From: Chondrosia reniformis
Taxonomy: Eukaryota > Porifera > Demospongiae > Chondrillida > Chondrillidae
NCBI GenBank assembly: GCA_947172415.1
Contig: OX359195.1
Location: forward strand, 6,485,501-6,549,500
Direction: 5' to 3'
DNA length: 64,000 nt
Program-made: the position numbers and the translations under genes
Notes under the pieces: model-generated
The model's database searches: none
The model's input: only the letters and a program-made list of their open reading frames with translations
Told to the model about the DNA's origin: nothing
Part shown: positions 3,001 to 62,667 of the stretch, one piece after another
Position numbering within the stretch: the stretch's first letter is position 1
Layout: the number at the start of each line of letters is the position of its first letter

Positions 3001-6000
3001 GTATTAAATTAATTATCCAAGATTTATAGAATGTAATGTACGTACATAATTAGGAATTACATTCATGTTTTCATAAGCTCATCATGAATCTCTGTTATGT
3101 TTGCTATTGTCAGCGAAAAATTACCGACTTGCTCCACTGGGTGCAATTTTTCTTGATCTTGGGAGTGGGGGGAGTGGTCTACTGCGGATGGTAACTGATC
3201 CTTTAGAGTGGCCTTTAGCCATTTGTGATGAGGGCTTTGGCCTGGCAGCTGCTAATGTAGCATGCTTACAGATGGGATATGCAGGAGCACTTGCAGTCAG
3301 AGCTAACTCATAGTTAGTACATCAATCATTGAACATGTATATATACATGTATATTATATATAATATCTATAGCTATATATAATATAATGTACCTGGTGAC
3401 CATGTGAGAGCTTTGGATATATATATACGTAAGAGTTTTCTCCTTTTTTCTCCATTGGGCCAGACAGGATCTCTATCCTTCATCAGTGACCCTGAGAGTC
3501 TTTGTCTTCTTCTTGATCTTTTGTGATTACTTGGCTCATGTACTGTTGATCGATGTTACGTATGTCTTTGTAGTTATGGAGGTTATGTCTTTCACGTACC
3601 CATACCTACTAAGCTTAGCTGTAGCAGCAATGAGAGCAGTTTAATTGAGTGCCGATATGAAATAGTAAACTGTAGCGGATATGAACAGATTGGAATACAG
3701 TGTAGTAAGTAACTAAATCATACATTTTAGTTCTCAAAAGAGAGAATTATATACGTATATACGTACATGAAATAGATATTAATATTTTAGCAATCCTAAG
3801 ACAATTGTTTCTAATAGTTAGGTTGTCCATATGTGTTCCTATATAAGTCTCACATATTATGTATCACTGAATAACCTATAGCTATTTTCCTTAATATATA
3901 TGCCCTCATATATGTATATATATATAGAGAGAGAATTTATATATAAACTGTATTATAGGATATACGTACGTAAGTGATGCTTAAACTTGTGCAATATATA
4001 CACAGTTACAGAGGACAGAGATACAAGAGGTAGCCTAAGGCTGGTTGGAGCTGATTTCTTCATTTATGCTAATGACACCAATCAAGGGAATGTTTCTGGG
4101 AAACTGGAAGTGTTTGTTGGTGGAGAGTGGCAATCACTGTGTGCTCAATGGTTCCCTGGTTCTGCTGCTCATATAGCTTGCAGGGAGCTTGGCTGGGATG
4201 GGGCAAGTGAAGTGATCACAGATGGGAGGTTAGCCATTTATTGATACTCTAGCACTAGAGAGCAGGACCAAAAAATGAGCTTGTGTTACGATTTCCTTGA
4301 ATTTCCTTTTACGTAGATTTGGAAATAATGGAAGTCTCTTAAGAATTGCAGGATGTGATGGTCACGAGAAGAGACTGATTGACTGTAGATATACTCCAGT
4401 ACATTCATCTGATTGTGGTCAGGATGTCGCAATAACCTGCAGTGAGCAAGCAATATATACCTATAATATATAAGTCTAGACTTTGTAAATCCAGAGGTGT
4501 GTAATATTGTACATGTCTGGCATACTATATTCCCAAATAAGTGTCCAAAGAGGTGAAAGGGGAGGGATAGTCTATAACAGCACACCATAGATTAAATGAC
4601 ACTGTTGCCTTAATATATACTTCAACATATGTATGTCATTTTACCTATATATGAATACGTTTATCCCGGATTCCAGGTAAATGTATCTGATTGGTTGAAA
4701 AGGTGATTTAATCTATAGTGTCACTAGACTGTTCCCCCTCCATGCCTTTGGATGCTTATTCGGGACAGTCTAACAAGCCAGGCTAACTAATGGCAGGGAG
4801 TATAGTTTTAAATACTGTATAGGCCATAGTATATATAGGTACCCAACCTTATATACTACAGGTGTTCAAGATGTCTACCCTGAAGGTACTGTTCGCTTAG
4901 CAACCACTACAGCAGATGTTGCAGGTGAAGGTAGACTGGAGATATTCCTGCATGGTCGGTGGGGCACTGTGTGTCGTAGAGATTTTACACTCACAGAGGG
5001 ACATGTAGCATGTAAGGAACTTGGGTTCAGTAAAGCTATAAAAATCACCACTAGCTATAGGTGAGGTGAAGATTAATCTAAGACGTATATAGGTGTGAAA
5101 AGTGTATGTACTGTACATCTATAAGCATGTACGAAAATTGTATAGTTATATATATACACTTACTTGCCTATACACACATTTATGATGCAACAAAACTGAA
5201 ACTTTATATTATTATATATATTTAGATAGTTTCATTTACTGAATGCTGTATCTAGGTATGTACATATTTACATATATAGCTTATATAGAGCTTGACAGGT
5301 TCTATATACATATATATTTACACTGGTTCTCTGTATGTTTACTTATATATTAATTAGTTCTCAAATGCAGCTGGAAAGCCTTCCTATCAACCTTCACTCC
5401 ATATCTTGTGTTGGCATGGAAACTAGACTGATAGATTGCCAGCATGAAAACCACCTTCCCAGCAGATGTGGAGACAACTCTGATGTGTTCCTGTTTTGTG
5501 ACCTCTTGGAAGATATAGATATACAGTACTTTTTGGGTTGGTTGTCCAGACAGGATGTTGCAATCGGTAATTGGTAAAAAGGGTTATCGCTGCATGGCAA
5601 TGTCATTCTAGTGGGAAAGTTTGTATAGTCACGAGTTGCTTACCGATACCCTTATTGCAATGTCCGGTCTGGACAACCTACCCAAAAAGTATATAATTAT
5701 AATGATATATTTGTGTGTGTTCTCACTTCGTAAATTTTATTGCTTTATTATTTATAGAAGAGTCTAGTGCTCTCTGGTCTACACAGACTTGGACTACTGC
5801 TGGTGGTGTACCTTCTACAGTGGTATCTACTGTTTTCTCAAATAAATCGCTATCAACATCATCCAGTACATCTCAGACTTCTGCTAGTCCATCCTCTGCT
5901 TCACTAACTGTGATATCCTCTCGTTTGCCAATTACTCTAAGAACTCAGCAGCTGTCAACTGTTAGTTCATTAGATCCTTCTTCTGCTTCCGCTTTGAGCA

Positions 6001-9000
6001 TCCCCTTATCTCCTTCTCTGAGCACTGTCTCTTTGAGCATCCCCTTATCTCCTTCTCCGAGCACTGTCTCTTTGAGCATCCCCTTACCTCCTTCTCCGAG
6101 CACTGTCTCTTTGAGCATCCCCTTACCTCCTTCTCCGAGCACTGTCTCTTTGAGCACCCCCTTACCTCCTTCTCCGAGCACTGTCTCTTTGAGCATCCCC
6201 TTATCTCCTTCTCTGAGCACTGTCTCTTTGAGCACCCCCTTATCTCCTTCTCTGAGCACTGTCTCTTTGAGCATCCCCTTATCTCCTTCTCTGAGCACTG
6301 TCTCTTTGAGCAATACACAGGGGGTAATGTCATTAGATGCAATTACACTGTCAATCCGGACATCACAGACAGTGTTAATGTCAATGGAAATGTCATCTTC
6401 TGGAAGAACTGTGACTCCCTCTCCAACAGAAACACCTTTAAGTGTGTGCCAAGAGCAAGTGGATAGTATTTGGTGTATCAAATGGGAAGAGAGTCCAATT
6501 AACTCATCAATTAATCAAACATGTCCAAATAAGACACAAAATGATCATATTAATGGAACCGCTGTCCGATTTTGTAATGAGGATGGAGATTGGTCCATTC
6601 CTGATGTAACTAACTGCTTTAGCACCAGTATTGAAGTTATCTTAAATATGGTATGCTTTAATTTAAAGTATATGAATATCATTATGGTATGCTGCAATTT
6701 AAATATGTTCATTGATTGATATCACTATGATTATGGAATATTATGTTATCAAAGCTGTGTTTCAAGTTCAAAAACACATGTTCCTCTTTACAGGTAATAA
6801 AAAGTAATACAAACCTCTCCTTGAAGATCAGTGAATTATCTACAGTTTTTGATAATCTTTCAAATATTCTCACTACTGGAAATAACTGTACAAGCCCAGT
6901 ATATCCACAAGACATAGCTAACACAATAGACATTATCTCAATCACTTTAAAGTAAGTTTTGAACTTCGAATTCCTTATTTGTTCATCCATCCATCCATCC
7001 ATCCATCCATCCATCCATCCATCCATCCATCCATCCATCCATCCATCCATCCATCCATCCATCTAGATTGTTCCTACATACATACAGACATAATATGTCT
7101 GTTCATCTCTCCATTCTTGTGCTCAATCACACATCTGTTTGCTGTGAAGCTTTTTGAAGGAAAAATCAAATGTCTCAAGCCACAGCAACCTAATTTATGC
7201 ATTTGTTAATGTAACTGACAAAGTTTTGGACAAAAGGAATGTACCATCATGGAATAGTATCAGTGTGAAGGTAAAATACAAATCCAGTTCACACACATCT
7301 ATATGTACATACATAAAAATGGGATTTATTATACAGTATATTCTGTATTTATTATACAGTATATTCTATGTACTTACAAATATACGTAGTTTTCAATATT
7401 GATATACGTACGTATACTGTACATACGTACATGACATATAGCAAATATGTATACTTACTGTATATACATGTACATATGTACATTATCAAGTTTAATTATT
7501 ACATACAAAATTAATAATAATGGCTGTACGTATATATACGTATATGTAATACAATGCAGTATGTCACATAATATATGTACAGAATATTCTTTCTCTATAA
7601 AGGATGAAATGGCAATTACATTGCTGAACTCTTTAGAAAGTATTTCACAGCAGGCTGGAGAAATCCTTAACATCTCCAGCATTATCAAAAGAAACATCAG
7701 TTAGTATTATACAGTCTATATACGTATTTTGTCATATCTGAATACAATATATATTAATTACCTATACTGATTCTCACTTTAGTTCTAAAATCAGAACCAG
7801 TACAGATGTTGAGCAAGGCCAACCAATCCAAGGTGACTGTCACACCTGGTAACATTCAGAATAAAGAGATGTTTTCAGAAGAACCATTTATTCCTTCACT
7901 CTTTATCTCTAAAGACTATTTACCTGAGAATGGAAGAGTTGTGTATACGGTTTTCAATTCTCTTCATCACTATCTCCTTACATTGCTTGAGAGTACTGAT
8001 ATAAGGTATGGGACTACATACATATATGTATATACTATAGCTATGTACATGTATGTAAGCTTCATATATATTTATTTTGTGTATAAATATATAGTGACAC
8101 TGTTATCATAGTTATATATCACTGCCTATAAAAGTAAACATGGTATATATAAGGATTTAAATAAATCTATATATGTACATATATATACATACGTACATGT
8201 TATACAGTATTATATATGTGTAATTTAATCTGAAATATACACTATTAAGCTTATAAATATGGTAAATGCCACATGTCTGTAGACATTAATGATGCTTGTT
8301 ATTGCCCGAATATGTAATTATTCTTTTTCCTAGGAAAGCTTCCGAATTTGATCTGGTCAGTCTCATATTGTCAGTTCAAGTTGTAAGCCAATCAAATACT
8401 GTTGAGGGAGCAGCTGTACAAATTCCTCTTGAAATTGTCTTTCCCATAATGGTTAGCAGTAATGTAATATAGAAGAATGGAAAAATGCCTCTAAAATGTT
8501 GAAACCATCAATTTGGCTTACTACTAAACATATTCAGTATATAAAGGGGTCACCTGAAGGGTGGATTTCCAGAAACAGATGTCTGGCCCAGTGGAAAAAT
8601 GAAGAAAAATTGTATCCTCTCTGTAGATTTCCCTAAGTATATATAGGTCCAGGTAAACAGTCTATTGTATTTTCCTTTGCCTTATGATCATTTTAACTAT
8701 GTCTCTAAATACAAGTAAATGGGTACTTTAGATTAAAATATGCTCATGTAAACATACATACGTACATACATACAATGCAGATCGATATATATATACATAC
8801 GTATACTGCATGAACATATATGTATATAAATATAAGTATGTCACATTGTAGGTAAACCTCTCAGAACATCCTAAATACGTACCATATTGTGTGTACTGGG
8901 ATTTTAATATGGTGGAGGACACACCTAAAGGGGTGTGGTCGACTAAGGGTATCAAGACTGAAGTCATCAATGAAGATCATATTAAATGTATCAGCAACCA

Positions 9001-31941: not shown

Positions 31942-31947
31942 TTTATT
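31942..31947 (-). terminator. Poly(A) signal for the Runx gene
   Basis: TTTATT on the plus strand reads AATAAA on the minus strand, 375 bases downstream of the Runx stop. This is the first canonical signal after the stop that I found. Confidence 0.5.
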
Positions 31948-32321: not shown

Positions 32322-35300
32322 TCACATTCTTTGAAAATCAAAGTAGAGACACCCATCCTTTTCCAGGTAGTCCTTGGCCGAGTGTTTTCCTTCAATTAGT
32401 TTTGTGAATCTCTTTTTGTGCAGGGATGATGTAATGCCAAGTTCCTCCAAATCCAGTTCAGACATACTACTCAGTAGCTCTCCGTCCACGTGTTCCTACA
32501 TACAGGAAAACAAACAATTCTGGATGCTCCTGTCAACAATTACGATACAGCAAAACTTGCATGGTTACAATTTAGGCGGCATAGATGACTATTATACGGA
32601 GGTGCTATTGGGTTTTGACTAGAAATCCATTTTCAGCACTAAAATAACCTGAATTTGCCTAAACTATGTACACACACTCCATATACATTTAATGGGAAGA
32701 ATTCATTTTCACTGGGGTGCCATTTTCTGTGTTTTCTAATGGCGGCACTTACATATGACGGGCCCAAAAATATGTCCATCCTTTTAATACGTATATTAGT
32801 AATTATTTACTCATCAATTAACAATAAAGCAACATTTAACTATTCACTCGAATGTTGATTTAAGAGGTGATATTTGATAATGTATGGATAAGGGTGGCCA
32901 TGTTTTTCCAGCCATCTCTACTCAGAGAGTACTACTGTAAGGATGTTGAAGTATTTACACTATTGTTAGATGGATTACTCACTTTGATAAACATTTGGTG
33001 ATACTTTTCTAAATCCATGGCTTTCAGGAGTTTTAAAATGCCTCTGTGATCCAAGCTCTTTAAATAGGTAATGTTTTGAGCTGTATCTGTGGAAAGATTT
33101 CCCTCTCCTTTAAGACCATCACTAGTTGGAGTCTTTACCTGCAGTTTCTGGTGGATAAACTGGCTTGAGGGTACAGTCGATGGACTTGTAGTGAGAGATG
33201 GAGAGATGGGCATGAATATTGCCTGGCAACCATTGTGAACTGGATTGGGCTGGATGAAAATTGGATGCAAGTATGCACCCTTTCCTTGTCGGATGGGAAC
33301 CAAACTTGTGGTAGCCATATTCTGCGGTTTGGAGGATACATCATTTACCAAACTCTTGGTAGTAGTGGTAAGTGAGTTCATGGTAGTACCATTCAGACTT
33401 AGTCCAATGTTGGTCTGGGCTGGAATAGAAGCAGTGCCAGCCGGAGGCGAAATGACAGCTGGGGGAGAGGTTGGTAACACAATCAACTTGTGAGGCAGCA
33501 AAGTGGAATTTGATGAGGTTATCACTCTGTGATCGGGTCTTGGGGAAATTGGAGCTGTTTTTCCTTCGTATTCAATAGTGGAACTGGTCAGACTAGATGA
33601 CTTTGGTGAGGGGATGGCGGTGGCCATGCCTGTCTGAGAGACAAGGCTTGACGCAGAAGACACTTGTTTCTGTAATAGTTCCATAGGAGGAAAGTTCTTG
33701 AAAACTGGCGTGAGTATGACATTGGGGGGCGCAGAGTGCGGTTCCACATTCATCGATACATCCTCTTCTATCAAAAAAAAACTAACTTATTAACCACTGG
33801 TTGTACCCACAAGCATAGCAAATTTCAGTACATTAGTCAAAATGTAGAAGCATACGTAAACTGACCAACAGAATACACACTTTATATGAATACAAGGAAA
33901 AACTACTACCCAAACCAACATGAAAAAGAAAGAAAAAATGGTTAATCATTATAACTACATGAAAATGTCATTTTGGATTATTTATTATCTAAATGACATT
34001 GTGTGCCGCATTAAAAACAGTACTGTACAACCATAACATGCTCAATCTGATTATATCCTTGTTTACTGTAGAATCTATGTGGGAAAATTTAAATTACTCA
34101 TGCAATTGGTATTGTCCACCTACCATTTCCTGAATCTACAGAGTGAGGAGATTTCTGCACAATGGGCTCTCCATCCACAGTGAATATGCCAGGTGTACTC
34201 CAGTCAGAGGTATGCACGCTATTGGGAGAGAGCGAGCCATTACGATGTGTCCAACTGTCGGAAATATTGTAAGGGGCTGGCTTCTGTCCTGTATTCAAAA
34301 CCACACAAAACAGGTAAAACATGATAATGGTTTCATTAAAAACAACCATATTACAGAAAAGTACATCTCCTTATATAAATCATCCTAATCTAATATAAAC
34401 ATAAAAATGAAGGCATAATGTCATGCAGTAAAATAGTTATCTGTAAAGCTTGTTCATTTACAGTAAAGTTAAAACCTTCAAAATGAGATGGGGAGGAATT
34501 AACCTCCTGCCCTGTGGCAGCCCCTTGCCCCTCTGCTTCTGTGGCCCTGTTTTAGAAATGGGAACTCCTATCAGTGAAGCATCAATTGACTAGCCTAAGT
34601 CCATAAACTTTTCAACCAGTTATGAAAGCTAGACATTTGGGTTCATGTATCACATTACAGTGAGAAAACAAGTGAGTGTGGACGGCTAATATGAAAGCTG
34701 ATTCAGCAGCCCCAAAATGATTGGTGTCACATGACAGCTGGTAAATGTAATTATGTCAGCTAACTAAGTCACAAGGTCATACCATAAACACTAACTCTTA
34801 AAGTGTGTTTGAAGTACACATCAAAGCGCAGACATGATCAGGCCCCAAGGAGCCATAAGAAGTAAGGTATTGTCTCATCAATGTCACTAACACCACCTGC
34901 AGCTGACAATTCTAAATATAGTTACATATTCAGACTACAGGTTACTTTATAGGGAATCCACACTCAAGTGTGATTTGGCCACTTAGCAGGAAATAGCACT
35001 GTAAACAGGTCAATACTGGAATGTCTACTTAAAGTGAACTCTTTAGAGGCAATTGAACTAACAATCCCTAATTAGCTGCCCCACGGGGCCCCTAGACTCA
35101 ACATTAGGCTAAACAAAGTCACACCATCCAGCCATGTGCTGTATGGACTGAATGATATACGTACCTCTCAAAAGAGGGGTATTCCCCAAGGGACATGAAT
35201 CACATGATCCTTGACTCAGCTGACCAAGTCACATGAGACTTAGAGTGCCCACTTTGTCACCCAGGTTCACTCAGGTACACACACCAATGATGTCACCTTT

Positions 35301-38300
35301 AATTTTTGGTTCTTTGAAATTACAGACCACAAAATATCTTCATTTCAAAAATGAAGTCATTGGAACTATGATTTATAGAACCTACCTCTAAAAGGATGCA
35401 GACAATGATATGCTTGCATCATTTTACCAAATAAAGACCATCATAGGCCTATCTACTTAGAAGCCCTATCAGTTACCATGCCAACCCATCCCAAATGTGT
35501 TTCTCTACCTTCCTGCACAGCAGGACGAGTATAAATGCCTATCTTTGAGCGACAGGATATGAGATGCATGTGAGATGCATTCCAAGGATATCTTTGGCTA
35601 TATGGATATCACTGTGATGTGCATGTGGTCAGATAGGCGGTGAGGTCCAGCAGGAGTGTGACGGAGGTACATAATACAAAGATATTGCTGGTGGTTACCA
35701 TGGAGATGATAAATGGGATAAAAGGCAACAACCAACCAATGTCATTAGGAGAACAACATAATCAATACAATATAATAAGAGCAATATAAAATGACCTTTA
35801 TGACTTGTATAATTCTTATAAACACCAGAGACTTGTGATCAACGCGACATGAAAATGTATACAGTGGAATTGTATGTACTGTAAAGGTTTTATGTACGCA
35901 CGTATATCAATACATGTGTTTATGCCCCCTACTTACTAGGATTAAAACTGCAACTGGAACCTTGTAATGCTACACAAAATTAAGTAATTTAAATGAAAAA
36001 TTCTACAAAGTGCAGTGTCCTTTATATATTAAACAAGGGAATGCATTCATGTGTAGTTTCACCAAAAGATAGCACCATGCATGCAATCACTGAAATCATT
36101 CAAAAACTTTCGAACAACATGTGTCCACAGTTGGTGTGACTATGAACACTGAAAGTAACTCTTAACTTTCAAGGTTGAAGGCTCTCACGAGAAGGCACAT
36201 GCCTTGGTACTCCCCTTCTTGACCCCAGAACCCATTGAAATTAGGATGCTGATTCAGTGGCAGAAATTGATATTGAATTTTTCAACCAAACTATTGAGAA
36301 AATATGACTACAATATTGTTTTAATATCAAATCAAAGATTTAATTGTCTTTCTGTTTTGAAATTAGGCAAAATAAAGGAGCTATAATAAAGTATGCATTG
36401 GTCTACCATTCTTAAATGTACAAATTTAACTCGTAAAAAGAGAAGAAAAGTTTAATTCAAAGGTTATAGCATTGTCCATAAAACATCACAATCCAAAAAA
36501 GGTAGGGACTATGTACGTACTTATACATATTAACACTGGACTTAAAAGTAACAATAAGCCGCTTCTCTACAAAATGGATCTTCTAGGCCTGAAATAGCCT
36601 AGTGGCTTCTAAATTAACAGGATTGTGCACTAATATACGTAGTACTGTTACAACATTCCATAAAGAGACATGGCAGGGCAAACTTCCATACAGTTGCAAG
36701 TTGTTGAAAGTACAAATGAGAAACATTCCAAGAATTTCCTGCTCAACACATTCCTCTTAAACACAATGGCGTAATCATAAAGTGGTCATTTGCCAAAGGA
36801 ATGAATTGTGAAATATTTGGTTGAAAGGGGTCTACTATAATCAGTACACGGGACCACTCCTATGAAGTCAAATCATAATCAAGTGTGGTCTGGTGTCATG
36901 GCGACAACACACCCTGTGTATCCAATCATGCCTACTTCCATGCAGAAATGGGACAGACAGTATAGATCCCTTCGTATACCACAGACAAACTGGCTCACTT
37001 TTTATAAATACCATATTAAGATAATTAATGAATGGGTGCGATTACAGGGAAACTTAAAAACTTACTAAGAGCTCATTTTCTAGGGAAAAGAATAAACAAT
37101 CAAAAATGCAAGAAAGAAACACACTCAACAGCACCTATCAACCATTACTTTACACATATGTAACGGCATACGGCTTAATGTGTATTAAGATACTAATTAC
37201 TATATAAAATGATCTCAAATTACCACAAAATAATCATGGAATTTACAAGCGTAAAATTGATATCAAAGTACTTCCTTATGATTAGTTTTATATTGTCAAG
37301 TCAATATTGCAATATTTTCTGTATCAAAATGGGAAAACCAATTCAATGTCATGTGCCGGCACATTGGCAGGACCAGTCCGCACATGACACTGGACCCATC
37401 CTATTAAAGACAAACTAAAAGTAATAACACAAAGAGGTCTTTGTTTAATCAGCTTGAATTATACAGTATCACTTTCTTTATTTTGAGATAACAATCATGT
37501 GGTAGAGGAAGCTTTTCTATTTGAACACTGCTGCAATATACCATGCAAACTTTTGTCATCAATGGAACACGTATAGTGTACCACTGATGAAAAAAGTTTG
37601 CACACTGTTTCATTTCAACAAAAATGGTGTGCTTTTTTCTGTACAATTCCTGTCCACAGGCAACTTTGCATAGAAAATAGACATGGACGTACAAAGCAAG
37701 TTAGTATTGGATTTCAGCCACTCAATCAAAATATGTACGCATAAACACAATATTAGAATAATACATTCATTGGATCCATCAATGTTTTTAATTAATAAAA
37801 AAATGTAAATTTATCAAATTGTCTAAATTACTACACTTACATACAATTTGTAACATGTACATATCAAATAAAGAGTTGGAAGTTTCAATGACCACTTTGC
37901 AGCCATCACAGTCAAATATGTGAGAGAAGCAGCCTTAAAACTGCTCAATGGAGCAAGTAAGAGGAAATTGTCCTGAGAACATGTATACTAAAAAGAGGTT
38001 ATCTTTCACTATCCCACCTGATGAGATCTACTTCCTAGAAGTAATCTCAAGAGGTTCTACCTACTTTCTGCCTGTTGTTTTTATCAATTTTCAGTGATGA
38101 TGATGTTCAAATTACAAATCTAGTACTGATGCTGGTTGACCACAAATATCAATAGTGGAGTTGCATATTTGATGGTGTCAAATGTTGATGTTTTATTCTT
38201 TAAGAGACAAAAGTCTAGTGAGGTCAATCTAACACAGATAGTGCTAGCCACAGAACACTTTGGCAAGTTACACCTCCTCAGTAGTTTAGAAAATCACCCC

Positions 38301-41300
38301 ATATGTTCAATGACAGCTGGCCATTTTTAATTATTCTATAACATCCAATAGCCAAACAAAAGCCTTAAACATTGAAGTCCATTAAAAACAACAGTAATTA
38401 ATGTAATATATAGCTAAAATTCTATATGTATTCTCATTGTGTATTCCATAACCTCATATAGACATACATTTGGTACATTCTGTGTTAAAACTCTAAAAAG
38501 GTTATGAAGATGCTAAGTCTATGAGATTAATGTATGATAAATAATTTGACAAAAGTTAACTAATCATCTGTGTACAATTACTGGAACTCATTGACAAGTA
38601 CATTGTCATAAAGTCTTTGTAGTTGACAGTGATGCAACTATTAATAACAAAATATCTAACTAGGAATTTAACATATACCTTAACCCATATACTGTATTGC
38701 CCAACTAGTGCGTGCTTTTCATATCTTCACAAGTCCAAGTGACACATGTATGATGCAAGATACAAGCAATGCTTACTTCTAGGCTCTCTTGGTCCATCTG
38801 CTGTCACTTTAATAGCATTCTCATAGACTGCAATAATTGGAGGCTCTAATACAATGACCACTTCAATATTCAGCTTTCTACCTACAGGGTGAAACCACAG
38901 ATCTGTCTTATGCAGACATTCTTTTCTAGCATTTATGTTTACATTCATACGGCTGGATTTACAAATCAATAATGATGTATTGAATAGTGAGTTCACCAAC
39001 CACACATTATTCAGGATGTAGCGTTAATCTAAATGGATTTTTCAGATTCAAATCAAGCTTGGTTCTGTGAGAGTTATGGCTAAAGGTTATGACTTAATAC
39101 AGGCATGTCAAACATTTGTAGGTTTGCATTTTTGTGGATATAGGGAAGTGAAGGGTATGCCCAAAAAAGCCAAATGTGAGTCTATTTCAGTGTGTTTAGT
39201 GAAAGTTTATAATGACCACTGAATAATATTTGTCAGTTGGCATTCCAGAATGTGAGAAGGGAAGCTAATTTGACCACAAAGGACTCCTACATTTAACAAC
39301 TAAATTGAGCTCATAAAACTGGGTTCAAATATAAGAATCCCAGATTCCACTTCAATATTCCTTCAACAAGATCTTGTACAACAAAAGGAAATCCCTTGTA
39401 TATGCCTCTGTTTATTGTCTACTAGGTGGTTCATATAATACAATCACAACTTGACTAGTAATCAGTGTTCTATTGAAAGTAATAAACCTATAATCATTGG
39501 CTGCTACTGAAAGCATTACAAAGAAAAGAAAGGAAAACCTAGAATGATTTGACACCACTGAAGCACCACAGTTATTCCACAGCCTTGACCACAAACCACA
39601 GCTGGTCTGAGGCGTGCAGCTTTTAATTCCTCTGCCACACAGTATGGCCACAGTATGTACAGGTCATTGTCTGACTTAATTTCCTTTACACACAAATAAT
39701 CAGAAAAGGGGCTTGCCTTAATTTTGTGCATAAGGAGATGAACACATAATACAATTAATACATGCTGACACTAGACAAACCACCTAGAAATTCTAGAAGA
39801 AATACCTTTTTAAGCTCCTCACAAAATTCTATATATTTGGTAACTTCAAATTGTCTTCAACCTATTCAATATAACAATCTTATGATTTGATATTCAAATT
39901 AAGATGTCAGATGTAATAACTTTGAAGTCATTATTATGAAACAATAAACCCAGTTCCATACAAAGTGTTAAAGAATCGGTGAGTTAAGAACAGATAAACA
40001 TTTACACAAGCACAATCTTGCCTTGAAGAGCCAAGCTACTGGTAAAGAGAAAGAGATAAGGTTCTGATTTTTAAGAAGCAGACTTGAAAAAGCTAACTGG
40101 GGATTTGATTGATATACTCACTTTTTACTTTAGCACACATTTATGCACCTATCCATCTCTATATATAGCAGGTATCATATACCATTTGAATTATACTGCA
40201 GCTGTAAATGCAGTATATTGTAACGACCTGTATAGCCTAACCACAAACCACACACACATCAAACATCTCCAGATCCCCATACATACACCATAGACTAACA
40301 ATATCTTCTCTTATAGAATTTTATTTCATAATCACTTTGGTAGTGCTAGTGAGGCCAATTTGGACGGTGACATTAATCTAGTTCTATACGTAGTTACTGC
40401 CTCTTGCATTCCTGCAATAAAGGAATTATAGTTTGCCTCTGGTACTGTATATACGTAGACAAACTTCCTTCAAAGGCAGGAGGTCACATTAGTTTACCAA
40501 TGAAGAGAAGACAGCATTCCCAATTCTTTTAAGATAAGCACTTCTACCATATATTGGCTTATCAGGTAAGAATTGCTGATGTGACTAATGATCTAATACA
40601 AGTGTATTAGGGATAATATCATATACAAAGGGATTATGTAGATACAGATATGGTGCTGATAGTAGGAACTACATTAAAGCACAATTAGCAAATAGCTAAA
40701 CCGAAAAATACCCAAAAACCACAAAACAACATTTATAAATATAAATAATCATTTCATTAGGATATTATTATTATTCATAATGGCTTGTCCATATCTTTAT
40801 ATTTATCACTTATAAAAGTTGAAAATTGTGTTAATTTAATCATTTTGAAATAAACTATCCTTCCTACAGAATTGTTACAAAAGTATTTTCCTATTTACAG
40901 GGGCACAACACAGTAGCATCATTACACAGGACACTTGTACATTTACAATACATCAGCTGTATTAAATGAAATTGAAAGGATTCACAAAAGATCAAGATCA
41001 AGAAATTCCCAGGGTCACTGATGAAGGGCGGAATTCCCAGAAACAGCTGTCTGGCCCAGTGGAGCAGAAGAAGAAAGAAAAGACTCCTGTATCTTCATCC
41101 TAAGCTCTCTCCAGGCTTAGTTCCCCTATAGGCTTTTTACAGAGTAGGTATAGCATGTAGGAAAATGGTATCTTAGATTAAATTTGTTGTAACTTAATCA
41201 ACTTATACTATAAGATTTCTTATCTCTAATTGAACAACACAAATGTAAAGAAATATTTTGGCCTCATTTTGACAGCTAGCAAGGAGTATAATATGATGGC

Positions 41301-43502
41301 TTGGATGAATAGGAGGAGTGTGATTTAACATCGCTGTAGTATTTTTTGTATAGTCTTGTAGCTAAACCGGGGTGCTAGCCTCAATGACTGCAGCTTTTCA
41401 CAGTCCTTATCATGATTGTGTAAATGTGACAGATAGTACTTGGCAAATACTTGTGGTGTGTTTATCACAGAACATTTTATATTATACAGGATATATAATA
41501 TTAATTAACTAATACTGTAAGCATGACTTCTGTTCTAACACACCTTTATGTGGTTAGTGTGTACTTCCCATGACAGTGAGATCACCTGCCAAAGACAGTG
41601 TGACAAACCACAAACCTTCTTTGAAAGGATGTTGCAAGTTGAACATCTTATTTAGCTACAAATCATGCATAAATCTGTTTACATATCAGGTTTGGAATCA
41701 CTGTATCTTCAATTGAAGGGAAATCTCTAAGCATGACACCCAGTACCACAGACTTCTATATACCTAACTCAAGCCACACTTATGTATTGAATGTATGCAC
41801 AGATAGACCAAGGACTCACTGAAAATCAAAGACCAAGATTCCCAGGGTTACCAATTAAGGGTGGAATTTCCAGAAACAGCTGTCTGACCCAGTGGAGTAG
41901 AAGAGAAGTTGGTTGAAGAAGAAAACTCTATATCCTCATCCAAAGCTCTTATTAGGTTTAGGCCTTTTACTGTAAAGTAGATGTAGCTTGTAAGTGTGTT
42001 AGATTATTTATGTATGGCATTTGGCTAATTCTGAGTCAAATCCTGAAATCGTCATGTAGGGGAGAAGTCTATATGGTAAATGGTGAATTAGTATGATAAT
42101 GTTTTTCAACTATGAAGGTCAACTTTAAGTAAATGCTTACATTGGTGTCTACTGCTACACATTTTTGTAATTAGAACAGTTCACTTTAATGTAAAATGTG
42201 CACTATACACTCAGTCTGGAAGTAGGTTTACTGCCGTGGTTACAAAATAAACTGTCATCTACAAATAATCACAGTACTAGATAGATTGCAAGATTATCCT
42301 ATAATTGCTTCACTACATGTGCTGTCACACACTTGAGCAGCATAAGGTCTAGAACTAGTGCTTTTTATCAAGGTTAGCTCCGGAGGAACAATATACTGGT
42401 AATGTTTGATGTAAAAGGTTTTGAAAGATTAGGAATTTTCATGGAAATGAGGACATTAAAGAGGAATTTCCAAAATTTTAGTGCATAGTGTTGACAAGGC
42501 AAAATTGGTCAGAAGAGAAAGTTAAACTATTATACCAATAACAAACTCAAAATGTTATAAGTAATATTGTCACAGAACCATCATATAGGTATAACCAGTT
42601 GTATACATAATACTCAGAGAATATACAAGTTATAACTTTGAAGCTCTTTCCTTCATGATTTTACGATTTTTCAATAGTCAAGCACCTCTTTCAATATATT
42701 AACCAGTCAGATACTACTCCATGCAGTCATATGGCTTCCACATGTCCAAAAGACAAGTATTACACATTTTATCATCATACTCATCCATTAACCATGGATT
42801 GTTGCACTTATATTATGATCATGTCTTAACTCTTTCTCGCATTAAGCAACACATTCTTAAATGTACTTCAATCCACACAGTATATCTTATGTGAAAATAG
42901 GTAACTATCAACCTACCACGCCCAGACCGTCCTATGAATCGAACATCTGGAAATTTTGCCACTCCGTTTATCAGAGTACCATCCACATTCTTCATTTCTG
43001 CCTTGGGATTAAATTTATTGCCGGCCTTCAGTCTGACCATAGTCCCATCCGGTACGGGTAGTTTACATACGACAATAAATGGTACATGTAGAGGACTGTT
43101 ACTACGCGTATGAGCCGGTAGCCGCGTGCAGTATACACTAGGATGTGTCGTGGTAATAAGTCCACCTGCGTCACGTACAACGTGCTGGACGTTAGGCGGT
43201 GTAATGTCTTCTGGCACCGAGTTTCGCCGTGGCGAATGCTCCAGATTCGAACTGTCAGTCGCACTGGTACTACTGTCCATATCGTGTTGGTCGTATTCCA
43301 GAAAATACTGACTGCGTTTAACTAGTATCGCACCAGACTTTTCGTCATGTGGTTGTGATATTTCATCTTCGTCATCCTGTAGCAAATCGTCGTTTGTTTG
43401 CTGCTGCTGGTGTTCGAGGTTGCTGAATGGTTCCATTTCAAGGTCTGAATGTTTTGTGTTAATACTAGAGTCCGACATACAATTTTCTATCAAACTCTCC
43501 AT
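32322..43502 (-). CDS. Runx: Runx transcription factor with a C-terminal SAM domain
   Basis: Five exons read on the minus strand: 43502-42917, 38881-38777, 34288-34124, 33767-32983, 32495-32322. They total 1815 bases (604 residues) with all phases matching. Residues ~1-105 are acidic and polar. The Runt DNA-binding domain spans ~105-235 and keeps PDGTMVRLKAGN, FPDVRFIGRSGRG, YENAIKVTADG and DGPREPRRQK, including the Arg residues of PREPRR known to contact DNA in RUNX1. A Ser/Thr/Pro-rich region (~236-520) follows, typical of Runx activation regions. Residues ~523-588, across the last intron, form a SAM domain (LLKAMDLEKYHQMF, then EHVDGELLSSMSELDLEELG). The protein ends CLYFDFQRM, with no VWRPY Groucho motif. 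Runt proteins act in the nucleus, usually with CBF-beta. The Runt-SAM join rests on phase and on the lack of an ATG start for exon 4. Confidence 0.88.
32383..33054 (-). other. SAM domain encoded across Runx exons 4 and 5
   Basis: Helices 1-2 come from the end of exon 4 (SLDHRGILKLLKAMDLEKYH) and helices 3-5 from exon 5 (HVDGELLSSMSELDLEELGI, then SSLHKKRFTKLIEG). The hallmark pattern is present: L..M.LE.Y...F.....DG..L..M.E.DL.ELGI....H. The intron is phase 0 (32496-32982). Confidence 0.88.
32860..32936 (+). mobile_element. End of a dispersed repeat shared with 20310-20395
   Basis: The shared end GGTGGCCATGTTTTTCCAGCC ... CTCAGAGAGTAC lies in the last Runx intron, 47 bases from the exon 4 donor. 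Confidence 0.45.
34289..38776 (-). other. Runx intron 2
   Basis: 4.5 kb without any exon that I can support. No long tandem repeat is present, unlike most other introns of this window. The sequence is less TA-rich than the SRCR introns and could hold regulatory elements, but nothing specific is identifiable by eye. Confidence 0.5.
41003..41181 (+). mobile_element. Dispersed hammerhead-family repeat, best-preserved copy
   Basis: About 179 bases from ATTCCCAGGGTCACTGATGA to ATGGTATCTTAGATTA. It comprises the ribozyme-like core at its left end, a purine-rich AGAAGAAGAAAGAAAAG tract, and a conserved right part (CTCTCTCCAGGCTTAG, CCTATAGGC, GAGTAGGTATAGCATG). It has no coding capacity. Confidence 0.8.
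41010..41060 (+). ncRNA. Hammerhead-like ribozyme core in the dispersed repeat
   Basis: Stem I is GGGTCA (41012-41017) with TGGCCC (41052-41057), including one G-U pair. The core CTGATGA (41018-41024) is followed by a GGG/CCC hairpin (41026-41028 with 41036-41038), then GAAA (41040-41043), a two-base-pair stem III with AGCT loop, and a GTC cleavage triplet ending at 41051. The pair next to the core in stem II would be A-A instead of the usual G-C, so activity is uncertain. Confidence 0.65.
41836..41990 (+). mobile_element. Dispersed hammerhead-family repeat, worn copy
   Basis: It starts ATTCCCAGGGTTACC, continues CCAGAAACAGCTGTCTGACC and CCCAGTGGAGTAGAAG, and ends around GGCCTTTTACTGTAAAG. 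The core is degraded. Confidence 0.7.
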
Positions 43503-47400: not shown

Positions 47401-50400
47401 TATATAAATACAGTAGAAGGCAAACATAGGTTGACTTACTTGTATTTTCTATCAGCACCATCTCCTTGAGCAGACAGCCTGGTTCTACAAGGGAAAGGAA
47501 GTCTAGGAATAAGATACATGTACAGCTACTGATACAACAGGATATTAATTCTTTACAAGACTCAAACCACAATAACATCCCACAGCACCTGATATCAGTC
47601 ACTTTGGTCAAGCAGCTGGGAAGGATGGGCAGTTACCATGCCAACAAGTCAAGCTTAACGCACTACAGTGTACCACACTGTAGCTACGTAATTATCCTCT
47701 TACATACTCTCTCTCTCCATGATCTACATGCCTCGGGGTCCTCTATTCCTCTAACACTCTTAACTTAAGACACACCCTTCAACCCAGAAATGAAAGCAGT
47801 CAGGTTACTATAGTTACTGAACTGTGACACCACACTGTACCCATTTCAGTGAGCTGTGACACTGTACCCATTTCAGTGAGCTGTGACACTGTACCCATTT
47901 CAGTGAGCTGTGACACCACACTGTACCCATTTCAGTGAGCTGTGACACTGTACCCATTTCAGTGAGCTGTGACACCACACTGTACCCATTTCAGTGAGCT
48001 GTGACACCACACTGTACCCATTTCAGTGAGCTGTGACACCACACTGTACCCATTTCAGTGAGCTGTGACACCACACTGTACCCATTTCAGTGAGTTGTGA
48101 CACTGTACCCATTTCAGTGAGCTGTGACACCACACTGTACCCATTTCAGTGAGCTGTGACACCACACTGTACCCATTTCAGTGAGCTGTGACACCACACT
48201 GTACCCATTTCAGTGAGCTGTGACACCACACTGTACCCATTTCAGTGAGCTGTGACACTGTACCCATTTCAGTGAGCTGTGACACCACACTGTACCCATT
48301 TCAGTGAGCTGTGACACCACACTGTACCCATTTCAGTGAGCTGTGACACCACACTGTACCCATTTCAGTGAGCTGTGACACCACACTGTACCCATTTCAG
48401 TGAGCTGTGACACCACACTGTACCCATTTCAGTGAGTTGTGACACTGTACCCATTTCAGTGAGCTGTGACACCACACTGTACCCATTTCAGTGAGCTGTG
48501 ACACCACACTGTACCCATTTCAGTGAGCTGTGACACCACACTGTACCCATTTCAGTGAGCTGTGACACTGTACCCATTTCAGTGAGCTGTGACACCACAC
48601 TGTACCCATTTCAGTGAGCTGTGACACCACACTGTACCCATTTCAGTGAGCTGTGACACCACACTGTACCCATTTCAGTGAGCTGTGACACCACACTGTA
48701 CCCATTTCAGTGAGTTGTGACACTGTACCCATTTCAGTGAGCTGTGACACCACACTGTACCCATTTCAGTGAGCTGTGACACCACACTGTACCCATTTCA
48801 GTGAGCTGTGACACCACACTGTACCCATTTCAGTGAGCTGTGACACTGTACCCATTTCAGTGAGCTGTGACACCACACTGTACCCATTTCAGTGAGCTGT
48901 GACACCACACTGTACCCATTTCAGCGAGCTGTGACACCACACTGTACCCATTTCAGTGAGCTGTGACACCACACTGTACCCATTTCAGTGAGTTGTGACA
49001 CTGTACCCATTTCAGTGAGCTGTGACACCACACTGTACCCATTTCAGTGAGCTGTGACACCACACTGTACCCATTTCAGTGAGCTGTGACACCACACTGT
49101 ACCCATTTCAGTGAGCTGTGACACTGTACCCATTTCAGTGAGCTGTGACACCACACTGTACCCATTTCAGTGAGCTGTGACACCACACTGTACCCATTTC
49201 AGTGAGCTGTGACACCACACTGTACCCATTTCAGTGAGCTGTGACACCACACTGTACCCATTTCAGTGAGCTGTGACACCACACTGTACCCATTTCAGTG
49301 AGCTGTGACACCACACTGTACCCATTTCAGTGAGCTGTGACACCACACTGTACCCATTTCAGTGAGCTGTGACACCACACTGTACCCATTTCAGTGAGCT
49401 GTGACACCACACTGTACCCATTTCAGTGAGCTGTGACACCACTTAGAGGCTTGAATCAATTTCCCCTTTTATGCAACCACAACTATTAATCTCTCCACAA
49501 TCACTTGAAGAAGCCATTAAAAGACAGATCAACCCACCACCTCACCATTGGCTTAGCCACTATCATTACAGGGTTTCTCTCAGAAATTATCTCAAGGGAA
49601 CATAATACATAATTTGATGGGGGAACCTAGTGGGAGGTGTTTATTATTAAAAAATTATTTTCTTTAAGAAGGAGGGGTGATTTCAAGGGGAGCCTTACTC
49701 CCTTTCTTAAAGAAATCCTGTATGACCTACAACAACAAAGATACCTCATTCCTGCTTATACACCAGAAAATACATTCAATTATCCTATACCTATAACTCA
49801 ATGGGTAAACTTACAAATACGTACGTATGTTTACAAGCCAGAATATCTGAAAAGAAGACAATCATGAATAAAATTACTCTTTAGATTCTCAAAACCATTA
49901 AAATACAAACCAAATACATACGTATACGTATGTATGTACCAACAAATAAACACAAGGCTTAACCTATAGAGGTTTGAATGAGGAAGAAAACCTTTCCTTT
50001 TCTCCCCACTGGGCCAGACAGCTTTTTCCTGGAAGTCTATGTTTGCTCGTTCTACTGTGTTTGATTTCACAGCCCATAAATATATACTAGTTATGTATAT
50101 ACATATTGCAATTTTTAATTCCCAATAATCACCTCTTTGATCTGGCACAACGCATCTCATCAGATTATACATTTCACAAATCTACCCAGTCAATTGGTGA
50201 GGAGATTTCCCTGTAACCAGGAAACACAAGCTTTGATCTCAGAGCCACCAAAAGATCTGTCCCACATTATCCTAGTCACACAAGAGGTCATTATGTTACA
50301 ACCAATTTAACTCAATTTACACAAAACTGCTTTCTACAAATGGTTTGTTGGTGAGTCCTAATTCTTTGAAGTGGTAACTTCAGACTTTAATTACCAGGGC

Positions 50401-60736: not shown

Positions 60737-62573
60737 ATGGCGTTACAGGCTGCGAAAAGGGCAAGCGTAAGTTCATCGATTCTCCTATTTATTAGTCTTT
60801 GTATATAAAGTTGTATTTTTAAAACTTAAAATAGGTTCGTCTTCCACCCGAAGTGAACAGGATACTTTACGTAAGGTATGTAATACGCCACACACATGGC
60901 AAATTGAGCCATACGTAGGCTATATAAAACGTCATATTTACGTATTTGTAAGCTCATTTTTGTTTTTAGTTGTCGTCTTCTCGCACTGACAGCTATTTCT
61001 CTCATCCCTTTCCAACAGCCTTGTGATTCTTCTGTCTTCACAAATTATATGTGAACACTGTATGATAGACCTTCCTATTCGTTTTATATGTGAACACTGT
61101 ATGATAGACCTTCCTATTCGTTTTATATGTGAACACTGTGTGATAGACCTTCCTATTCGTTTTATATGTGAACACTGTATGATAGACCTTCCTATTCGTT
61201 TTATATGTGAACACTGTATGATAGACCTTCCTATTCGTTTTATATGTGAACACTGTGTGATAGACCTTCCTATTCGTTTTATATGTGAACACTGTATGAT
61301 AGACCTTCCTATTCGTTTTATATGTGAACACTGTATGATAGACCTTCCTATTCTTTTTATATGTGAACACTGTATGATAGACCTTCCTATTCGTTTTATA
61401 TGTGAACACTGTATGATAGACCTTCCTATTCGTTTTATATGTGAACACTGTATGATAGACCTTCCTATTCGTTTTATATGTGAACACTGTGTGATAGACC
61501 TTCCTATTCGTTTTTTATGTGAACACTGTGTGATAGACCTTCCTATTCATTTTATGTGTAGAAATCTACCATTTGAGATAACTGCCGAAGAAATGTATGA
61601 CATATTTGGAAAGTATGGACCCATTAGACAGATAAGATTGTAAGTTGGACTCAACAGTGTATACTTTCTTATACCACCATCTTGTATCATCCATATGTAA
61701 TTATGTGACACATTAATATCCTAATCTATTTGGTGCTACATGTATATACGTAAGAATGCTCCCAGCCAACTATTAAGAGTTCTGTACATTACAGTCACTG
61801 GATAGCCTCACCAAAAATACTGGTAGGGCAATGAGCTAGTAACCATGGTTACATGGCTAACATCTTGTATTTCTAATCAACCAATAGGAAAATATTGGCT
61901 GACAATTGTACCATCTCCAGTCCATTTAGGAGCAAATATAAATAATGTAATAATCAAACTGGCCTTTTTCCTACGTATAAGCATAAGTGGCTAAAGGAGA
62001 CAAAAGAATACATATACATAGAGACTAAAACACATAAGACTATGAGATTTAGGGCAAACCTAATATGTTGTTCAATCTGTGAGTCTCTAATCTGTTTGAG
62101 AGCACATACATACGTATATAATGTGCATCAATGTGACCAGTATTCAATTAGTAGTTCCTGTCTATTAACCTTTTTAATGCTACCATTGGCAGGGGTAATT
62201 CAGCAACAACTCGCGGTACAGCATTTGTGGTATATGAGGATATCTTTGATGCAAAGAATGCATGTGAGCATCTTTCTGGATTCAACGTCTGCAACCGATA
62301 TCTGGTAGTTCTCTACTATCAACCACATAAGGTTGGTTGTCATAGCAATGATGATGTAACAATTGTTCTATGTCATCATCTCTATAGTTTATCTTATTAT
62401 TTAAAAATAAATGATCTATCATTAATTGTGTCATCTACTGTTGTCTGTAATATAAAAGTTATCATCTTGTGGACACAAAAATGTAGGCATTCAAGAAAAT
62501 GGATAAGGAGTCAAAGAAGGAAGATCTTGATAAGCTCAAGGCAAAGTATGGTGTGGATGTTGACAAAAAATAA
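60737..62573 (+). CDS. SF3B6: Splicing factor 3B subunit 6 (SF3b14a/p14)
   Basis: Five exons (60737-60766, 60835-60875, 61562-61639, 62193-62331, 62487-62573) encode 124 residues, one fewer than human SF3B6 (125). Identity is high throughout: [23 protein letters not shown] then [40 protein letters not shown] and [10 protein letters not shown] single RRM (RNP2 YVRNLP, RNP1 RGTAFVVY) and the C-terminal helix are present. The family member sits in the U2 snRNP SF3b complex and contacts the branch-point adenosine and SF3B1 in the nucleus. Intron 2 carries a 13-copy minisatellite immediately before the exon 3 acceptor. The stop lies 94 bases before the next gene's ATG. Confidence 0.96.
61047..61553 (+). 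repeat. 39-base minisatellite abutting the SF3B6 exon 3 acceptor
   Basis: Thirteen near-identical 39-base units (ATATGTGAACACTGTATGAT, then AGACCTTCCTATTCGTTTT) end in the true splice acceptor TTTTATGTGTAG at 61561. The acceptor itself looks like the start of a fourteenth unit. Each unit contains a pyrimidine-rich tract. The frame [13 protein letters not shown] is open through all copies and continues in frame into the RRM exon. The opposite strand is open too. Confidence 0.93.
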
Positions 62574-62667
62574 CACTCGGGCTCAACTTTATCTTTCTTG
62601 TGACTGCATGTGTGTAACCTTTCGTAACTATTTTTGGGGAAATCCCTTATAAGCTGTACTCATAAAT

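Follow-up and report, generated by a model that had tools for sequence, protein, structure and literature searches.

Background

The closest described relatives of the gene reported here are the Runx genes, for which conserved introns within and after the Runt domain are given as the family pattern (PMC2527000, PMC2674455), together with a 105-nt exon found in both Nematostella and deuterostome Runx (PMC2527000). AmqRunx, the single Runx of Amphimedon, is described as having no WRPY motif, its tail is printed with a composition of P 12, S 16 and T 7%, and WRPY is also listed as missing from one leech and one planarian Runx paralogue (PMC2674455). The initial annotation of our locus, made from the DNA letters alone, had taken a terminal VWRPY as a general property of known Runx proteins, a generalisation contradicted by these three cases.

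ETS-Pointed and Polycomb proteins are transcription regulators that carry SAM domains. LEAFY is another, and its entry to low-affinity sites or closed chromatin appears to depend on SAM oligomerisation (PMC4844672). Outside transcription, the GAREM plan is described as placing SAM at the C-terminus, after a CABIT domain and a P-rich tail (PMC8086153). Among the open-licence papers listed in our literature searches, no title or abstract opening describes a protein with both Runt and SAM domains. Here we describe a gene of the sponge Chondrosia reniformis that is predicted to encode such a protein.

Structure of the predicted Runt-SAM gene

We analysed a 64,000-nt stretch of the C. reniformis assembly GCA_947172415.1 (contig OX359195.1, positions 6,485,501 to 6,549,500 of the forward strand), hereafter the window. 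On its minus strand, from 43502 to 32322, five exons join into a single open frame of 604 aa, with the stop codon included in exon 5. All four introns are GT-AG with phases 1, 1, 1 and 0, in keeping with the agreement of exon phases noted in the initial annotation. Exon 1 (42917..43502, 586 nt, ending in phase 1) holds the start codon, which has an in-frame stop 12 nt upstream, then 109 residues that appear Asp/Glu-rich by eye, then the larger part of Runt, through GRSGRG. Exon 2 (38777..38881, 105 nt) has the size of the conserved Runx exon and encodes the C-terminal part of Runt as far as DGPREPR, while exon 3 (34124..34288, 165 nt) finishes RRQK and continues into a linker. These three exons are joined through conserved Runt sequence (GRSGRG/RK and PREPR/RQK, with slashes marking the introns; the exon 2-3 junction restores PREPRRQK). 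Exon 4 (32983..33767, 785 nt) encodes a Pro/Ser/Thr-rich tail and the first part of the SAM domain, and exon 5 (32322..32495, 174 nt with the stop) encodes the rest of SAM, 22 residues beyond the SAM_1 match and the stop codon, so that the protein ends in YFDFQRM. A candidate poly(A) signal for the whole gene, AATAAA at 31942..31947 on the minus strand, lies about 375 nt past the stop codon. On the same strand the gene is flanked upstream by a mitochondrial carrier exon (profile match of 79.5 bits) and downstream by an ORF of the Rpc31/POLR3G type (33.9 bits, cut-off 30.2).

Both domains of the predicted protein were found in Pfam searches. The Runt profile PF00853 matched residues 110-232 over profile positions 7-129 of 129 (132 bits, cut-off 27, e-value = 1.2e-38), and SAM_1 matched residues 531-582 (40.1 bits, cut-off 23, e-value = 4.9e-10) with an overlapping SAM_2 match (32.6 bits, cut-off 20.5). 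These results bear out the initial assignment of Runt to exons 1-3 and of SAM to exons 4-5 of one minus-strand gene, by the Runt and SAM_1 profile searches it had proposed. Nothing besides Runt, SAM_1 and SAM_2 was found in the 604-aa protein at e-values up to 1, and CABIT, p53 tetramerisation and CP2 domains were absent from that scan. Against PDB sequences, the Runt domain had RUNX1 as its top match (e-value = 9.6e-34), and all 17 of its 17 matches were RUNX/CBF-alpha chains. The SAM domain matched 45 PDB sequences at e-values up to 1, with tir-1 best, followed by a SHIP2 fusion, Caskin and SARM1. None of these 45 was an ETS or Polycomb SAM, contrary to the likeness to the ETS Pointed domain and Polycomb proteins that had initially been drawn.

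Exons 1-3 are thus tied together by Runt and exons 4-5 by SAM, whose SAM_1-matching stretch (32391..33033, minus strand) is split by a 487-nt phase-0 intron at IK/EHVDG, and intron 3 (33768..34123, 356 nt, minus strand) is the link between the two blocks and the junction that carries the fusion. Its acceptor includes a run of nine T (GTTTTTTTTTGATAG), the exon-4 frame opens just 19 nt ahead of that acceptor, and the phases of exons 3 and 4 agree (a chance of 1/3). When introns 1 and 2 were sampled at random on the sense strand in three frames, an open frame was found in 0 of 2000 windows of 785 bases and in 96 of 2000 windows of 165 bases, which makes exon 4 strong and exon 3 on its own weak. 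With codon preference trained on 7 long ORFs from other loci, the claimed frame was the best of the six in every exon but exon 3, where it came second (0.237) to an antisense frame with 2 stops (0.281). The exon-4 tail (232 residues) is composed of P 12.1, S 14.7 and T 11.2%, and the tail of the second C. reniformis Runx, on chromosome 1, is also P/S/T-rich (P 15, S 13 and T 6%). The two tails show no significant similarity to each other, with 269 of 1000 shuffles scoring as high. We consider it very probable that the Runt exons 1-3 and exons 4-5 are joined in one predicted transcript, a junction also favoured by the P/S/T content that exon 4 shares with Runx tails and by the lack of a WRPY-like ending elsewhere on this strand of the gene, and the Runt-SAM gene is well supported, as a gene model, as a real predicted fusion.

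Other features of the window

Further plus-strand regions of the window contain profile matches. At 60990-61640 a 39-bp minisatellite (61045-61559, 13.2 copies) runs straight into the start of an RRM (25.6 bits, cut-off 20.7), which we take to be SF3B6-like, and a second RRM piece lies downstream at 62155-62649 (20.1 bits, just under the cut-off of 20.7). In an ORF at 5706-6716, a 39-bp coding repeat rich in Ser and Pro (5992-6312) precedes an HRM hormone-receptor domain (36.2 bits, cut-off 26.2), and an SRCR-like exon at 2124-2489 scored 23.3 bits, below the cut-off of 26.1. We also observed a 1.6-kb tandem array at 47818-49442, with a 32-bp unit in 52.5 copies and 93% matches, which sits in the stretch of highest G+C in the window (0.454 at 48001-50000).

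A second Runx gene in the same genome

Our search with the Runt profile covered 117,379,552 bases in 15 contigs and gave four matching places belonging to two genes, the Runt-SAM gene on contig C7 and a paralogue on C1 (C1:3236455-3237266). Over 120 Runt residues, the C1 Runx has 92 identical residues in common with the RUNX1 chain 3wtu and Runt-SAM has 58, and the two paralogues share 60 of 120 with each other. In both, exon 2 is 105 nt long and exon 1 ends in phase 1. We did not find SAM at the C1 Runx: 3 of the 71 SAM_1 matches genome-wide are on C1, and the nearest is about 240 kb away. In the C1 gene the final long ORF terminates in LALKY, and the 29.7 kb examined around the gene yielded no WRPY-like motif. 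Likewise, the strict WRPY pattern had no match in the window or at the C1 Runx locus (L007), and the minus strand of the Runt-SAM gene has no [FW]RP[YWF] motif and so no hidden WRPY exon; the sole minus-strand occurrence of that motif in the window, FRPY followed by a stop near 52 kb, is outside the gene. The C1 locus also contains a long purine-rich low-complexity array of the GGGGAAGG type (L007:2040-2860), located between an exon-3-like ORF and the last ORF.

Synteny with SUPT3H was considered and rejected, as the only TFIID-18kDa match genome-wide is on C13, near neither Runx; this match may be TAF13 rather than SUPT3H. Searches beyond the sponge confirmed no relatives: a 219-residue stretch spanning Runt, exon 3 and the start of exon 4 gave three pattern-matching stretches in viral contigs with none confirmed, and a 132-residue Runt stretch gave 456 in prokaryote genome contigs, again with none confirmed. 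By its predicted sequence, the Runt-SAM gene is a second, divergent demosponge Runx beside an ordinary one.

DNA-contact and CBF-beta-face residues

We take the DNA-contact sites of RUNX1 to be R80, K83, R135, R139, R142, G143, K167, T169, D171, R174 and R177. Runt-SAM keeps 10 of the 11 sites on this list, with K83 replaced by S, and its Runt domain is therefore likely to bind DNA. For the CBF-beta face we compared nine residues, four of them named in print, in a set to which T147 and F153 do not belong; V159, also printed and I in both paralogues, was excluded as its role is unsure. By this list Runt-SAM keeps 3 of 9 (A107, G108 and N109, with changes at M106, Y113, S114, T149, T161 and H163) and the C1 Runx keeps 5 of 9. 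M106, Y113, S114 and H163 are printed in PMC2527000 because Nematostella Runx differs at these positions too, and the same source describes an unusual and quite distinct CBF-beta face in Oscarella Runx. The C. reniformis genome has a CBF-beta gene on C12. Given that only four of the nine residues are named in print, that the C1 Runx itself keeps only five of nine and that the face varies in Nematostella and Oscarella, any argument from an altered CBF-beta interface in Runt-SAM would be weak.

Subfamily and possible origin of the SAM domain

At e-values up to 0.01, 34 places in the genome are similar to the Runx SAM, 2 of them within the gene itself and 32 elsewhere, and many of these relatives belong to clusters of large ORFs on C3 and C6. 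No other place in the genome was found to exceed 52% identity to the Runx SAM. One relative, on C11, belongs to a gene that follows the GAREM plan: its CABIT domain (24.9 bits, cut-off 24) is succeeded by a P-rich tail, and SAM stands at the C-terminus. That CABIT match is the only one in the genome above the Pfam cut-off; an upstream exon of the same gene gives a CABIT match of 16.6 bits, below the cut-off of 24. An intron of 101 nt, in phase 0, splits the C11 SAM at exactly the codon that the 487-nt intron interrupts in the Runx SAM (YVECFKM/EHIDGELLSS in C11 and YHQMFIK/EHVDGELLSS in Runt-SAM). Among the 26 relatives in the tree described below, C11 alone is interrupted at this point and the other 25 read through. 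Once spliced, the CABIT-SAM of C11 scores higher against the Runx SAM in pairwise comparison than any other relative (214, the next being 194); in the unspliced search several other relatives outrank it.

A tree of 31 SAM sequences was built from 26 genomic relatives, the Runx SAM and four PDB stretches, leaving out C12_231k (mis-extracted), C3:7436498, four weak matches without a locus and the SAMs of ETS and Polycomb proteins. The Runx SAM, the 26 relatives and tir-1, which is on a long branch, were separated from SHIP2 and Caskin2 with support of 98/96, and no supported sister of the Runx SAM was recovered within this subfamily. The tree program warned that the long branches C9_7681k and tir-1 may group falsely. 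Since the SAM subfamily is common to CABIT-SAM genes, and since the C11 intron shares codon and phase with that of the Runx SAM, the SAM-encoding 3' end of Runt-SAM was most likely gained by exon shuffling. The shared intron position also lends further support to the SAM half of the gene model.

Other members of the subfamily occur in different settings. On C4, the locus L017 (G000:C4:219500-226500) has two convergent and uninterrupted ORFs (1588-2880 on the plus strand and 3483-4655 on the minus strand), each with a Brinker-type HTH domain (51.7 and 29.7 bits, cut-off 23.4) and a C-terminal SAM of the Runx-SAM subfamily. They represent a second DNA-binding-plus-SAM architecture in C. reniformis; our literature search on Brinker with SAM found nothing of use. 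Clusters of large ORFs ending in a Runx-type SAM were observed at 7.42-7.46 Mb and 7.94 Mb on C3 and at 8.1 and 8.38 Mb on C6 (L015, L019, L020 and others). By eye these ORFs resemble CABIT-SAM genes (GAREM/THEMIS-like), although Pfam calls CABIT only in C11, and the clusters represent a lineage expansion of possible adaptor genes.

Alternative explanations

The exons might instead belong to two adjacent genes, a short Runx that ends within intron 3 (GNGRWTIPIA, then a stop) and a separate P/S/T-rich SAM protein of 314 residues starting from an ATG in exon 4. The initial annotation had dismissed a separate gene on the grounds that exon 4 has no ATG at its start. This argument is weak and does not exclude one, as the first in-frame ATG (33751..33753, minus strand) is the sixth residue, counting the split codon. 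Intron 3 also has one AATAAA (33986-33981), relatives of the Runx SAM occur in other genes, and no homology links the exon-4 tail to Runx. However, the frame of exon 4 opens 19 nt ahead of a T-tract acceptor in the right phase, a T stands at -3 of its ATG, a poly(A) site and a promoter would both have to fit into the 356-nt gap, and the Runx would lose the P/S/T-rich tail present in its paralogue and in Amphimedon Runx; as for the AATAAA itself, chance alone would place about 0.4 copies in an interval of this kind, as estimated from regional base composition. Two genes therefore seem distinctly unlikely to us. An assembly artefact that set a fragment of a CABIT-SAM gene beside a Runx gene would have had numerous SAM relatives in the genome to draw on, but we found no other place matching the Runx SAM above 52% identity, the pieces make one open gene, and the assembly was made from HiFi and Hi-C data with a primary QV of 69.8 (PMC12181767), so that this explanation is scarcely credible.

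We also considered that the fused gene may be decaying or little used, as a divergent Runx copy under relaxed constraint. The low identity of its Runt domain to 3wtu in comparison with the paralogue (58 and 92 of 120) would fit this, but the 604-codon frame is intact, the Runt match of 132 bits spans profile positions 7-129, the DNA contacts listed above are kept at all but one of 11 sites, SAM scores above its cut-off and the exons show coding signal, making decay very unlikely. The alternative with the strongest claim accepts the fusion and has the SAM domain act as a monomeric docking or regulatory module without self-association. There are many SAM domains that do not polymerise. By sequence, however, SARM1 and tir-1 are among the nearest solved relatives, and their SAMs are oligomeric; we regard a monomeric SAM as quite possible without favouring it. 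The reading we prefer is that of one protein with a Runt domain, a P/S/T-rich tail and a C-terminal SAM that would have been derived from a CABIT-SAM gene and would oligomerise or bind partners, and we consider this reading probable. As to other transcripts, the AATAAA in intron 3 means that a SAM-less short isoform ending at the intron 3 stop is possible, and together with the in-frame ATG in exon 4 it leaves room for further possible forms.

Proposed function

We propose that a Runx copy would have received, by exon shuffling from a CABIT-SAM (GAREM-like) gene, a 3' end with the intron-split SAM and perhaps also the rich tail that precedes it. The Runt domain of this copy would still bind Runx sites. 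The SAM domain would then provide self-association or binding to other SAM proteins, such as the CABIT-SAM adaptors and the Brinker-HTH-SAM proteins. From the presence of the domain we infer, as seems reasonable, that Runt-SAM recruits partners through SAM, and it may also oligomerise. The SAM domains of transcription factors can oligomerise, with LEAFY as the precedent; SAM-mediated oligomers or mixed SAM complexes may form on Runx sites and could lead to cooperative binding at clustered or weak sites. Perhaps SAM also compensates for an altered CBF-beta interface and the missing WRPY Groucho motif. A bolder extension, which we think unlikely, is that the common SAM subfamily wires CABIT-SAM signalling adaptors to Runt-SAM and the Brinker-HTH-SAM proteins, so that SAM-SAM contacts would bring receptor-kinase adaptor signals or co-polymers to Runx sites and replace CBF-beta and Groucho as the main Runx partners.

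Comparison with known systems

Runt-SAM shares a near full-length Runt domain, conserved introns, the 105-nt exon and a P/S/T-rich tail with the Runx family (RUNX1-3, Runt, AmqRunx, OscRunx), and with AmqRunx it also shares the lack of WRPY reported in PMC2674455. It differs from the family in its C-terminal SAM and divergent Runt sequence, and it has five exons where the basic Runx plan is given as four (PMC2674455). With the CABIT-SAM adaptors (GAREM/THEMIS-like), represented by the C11 gene, it has in common the SAM subfamily, the position and phase of the SAM intron and a P-rich tail before SAM, whereas C11 has CABIT and Runt-SAM has Runt instead, with no CABIT by Pfam.

The Runt domain has a p53-like fold. 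In p63/p73 and LSF/CP2 a DNA-binding domain is likewise followed by SAM towards the C-terminus (LSF: PMC2873413), although their DNA-binding families are different and, by Pfam, Runt-SAM has neither a p53 tetramerisation nor a CP2 domain. LEAFY is similarly a transcription regulator with SAM (PMC4844672) but has a different DNA-binding domain. The ETS-Pointed and Polycomb SAM regulators also have other DNA-binding domains, and their SAMs are not among the 45 PDB matches. Of the initial reading of this locus as a Runx with SAM, the Runt-SAM gene model stands, the ETS/Polycomb likeness is not borne out by the PDB sequence matches, and the missing-ATG argument is weak.

We conclude that Runt-SAM is a variant of the Runx family through domain gain and not a new kind of system. 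What appears to be new, from the sequences compared here, is that the SAM subfamily of this Runx is common to CABIT-SAM genes and two Brinker-HTH-SAM ORFs, with an intron position shared with C11. As this genome also contains what is probably a relative of the donor, the origin of the SAM domain is testable. A second Runx with a gained SAM would show the partner logic of Runx rewired by exon shuffling, and suggests that a developmental regulator gained a new mode of assembling with its partners. Runt-SAM would thus repeat, within Runx, the plan of a DNA-binding domain plus SAM seen in p63/p73 and LSF.
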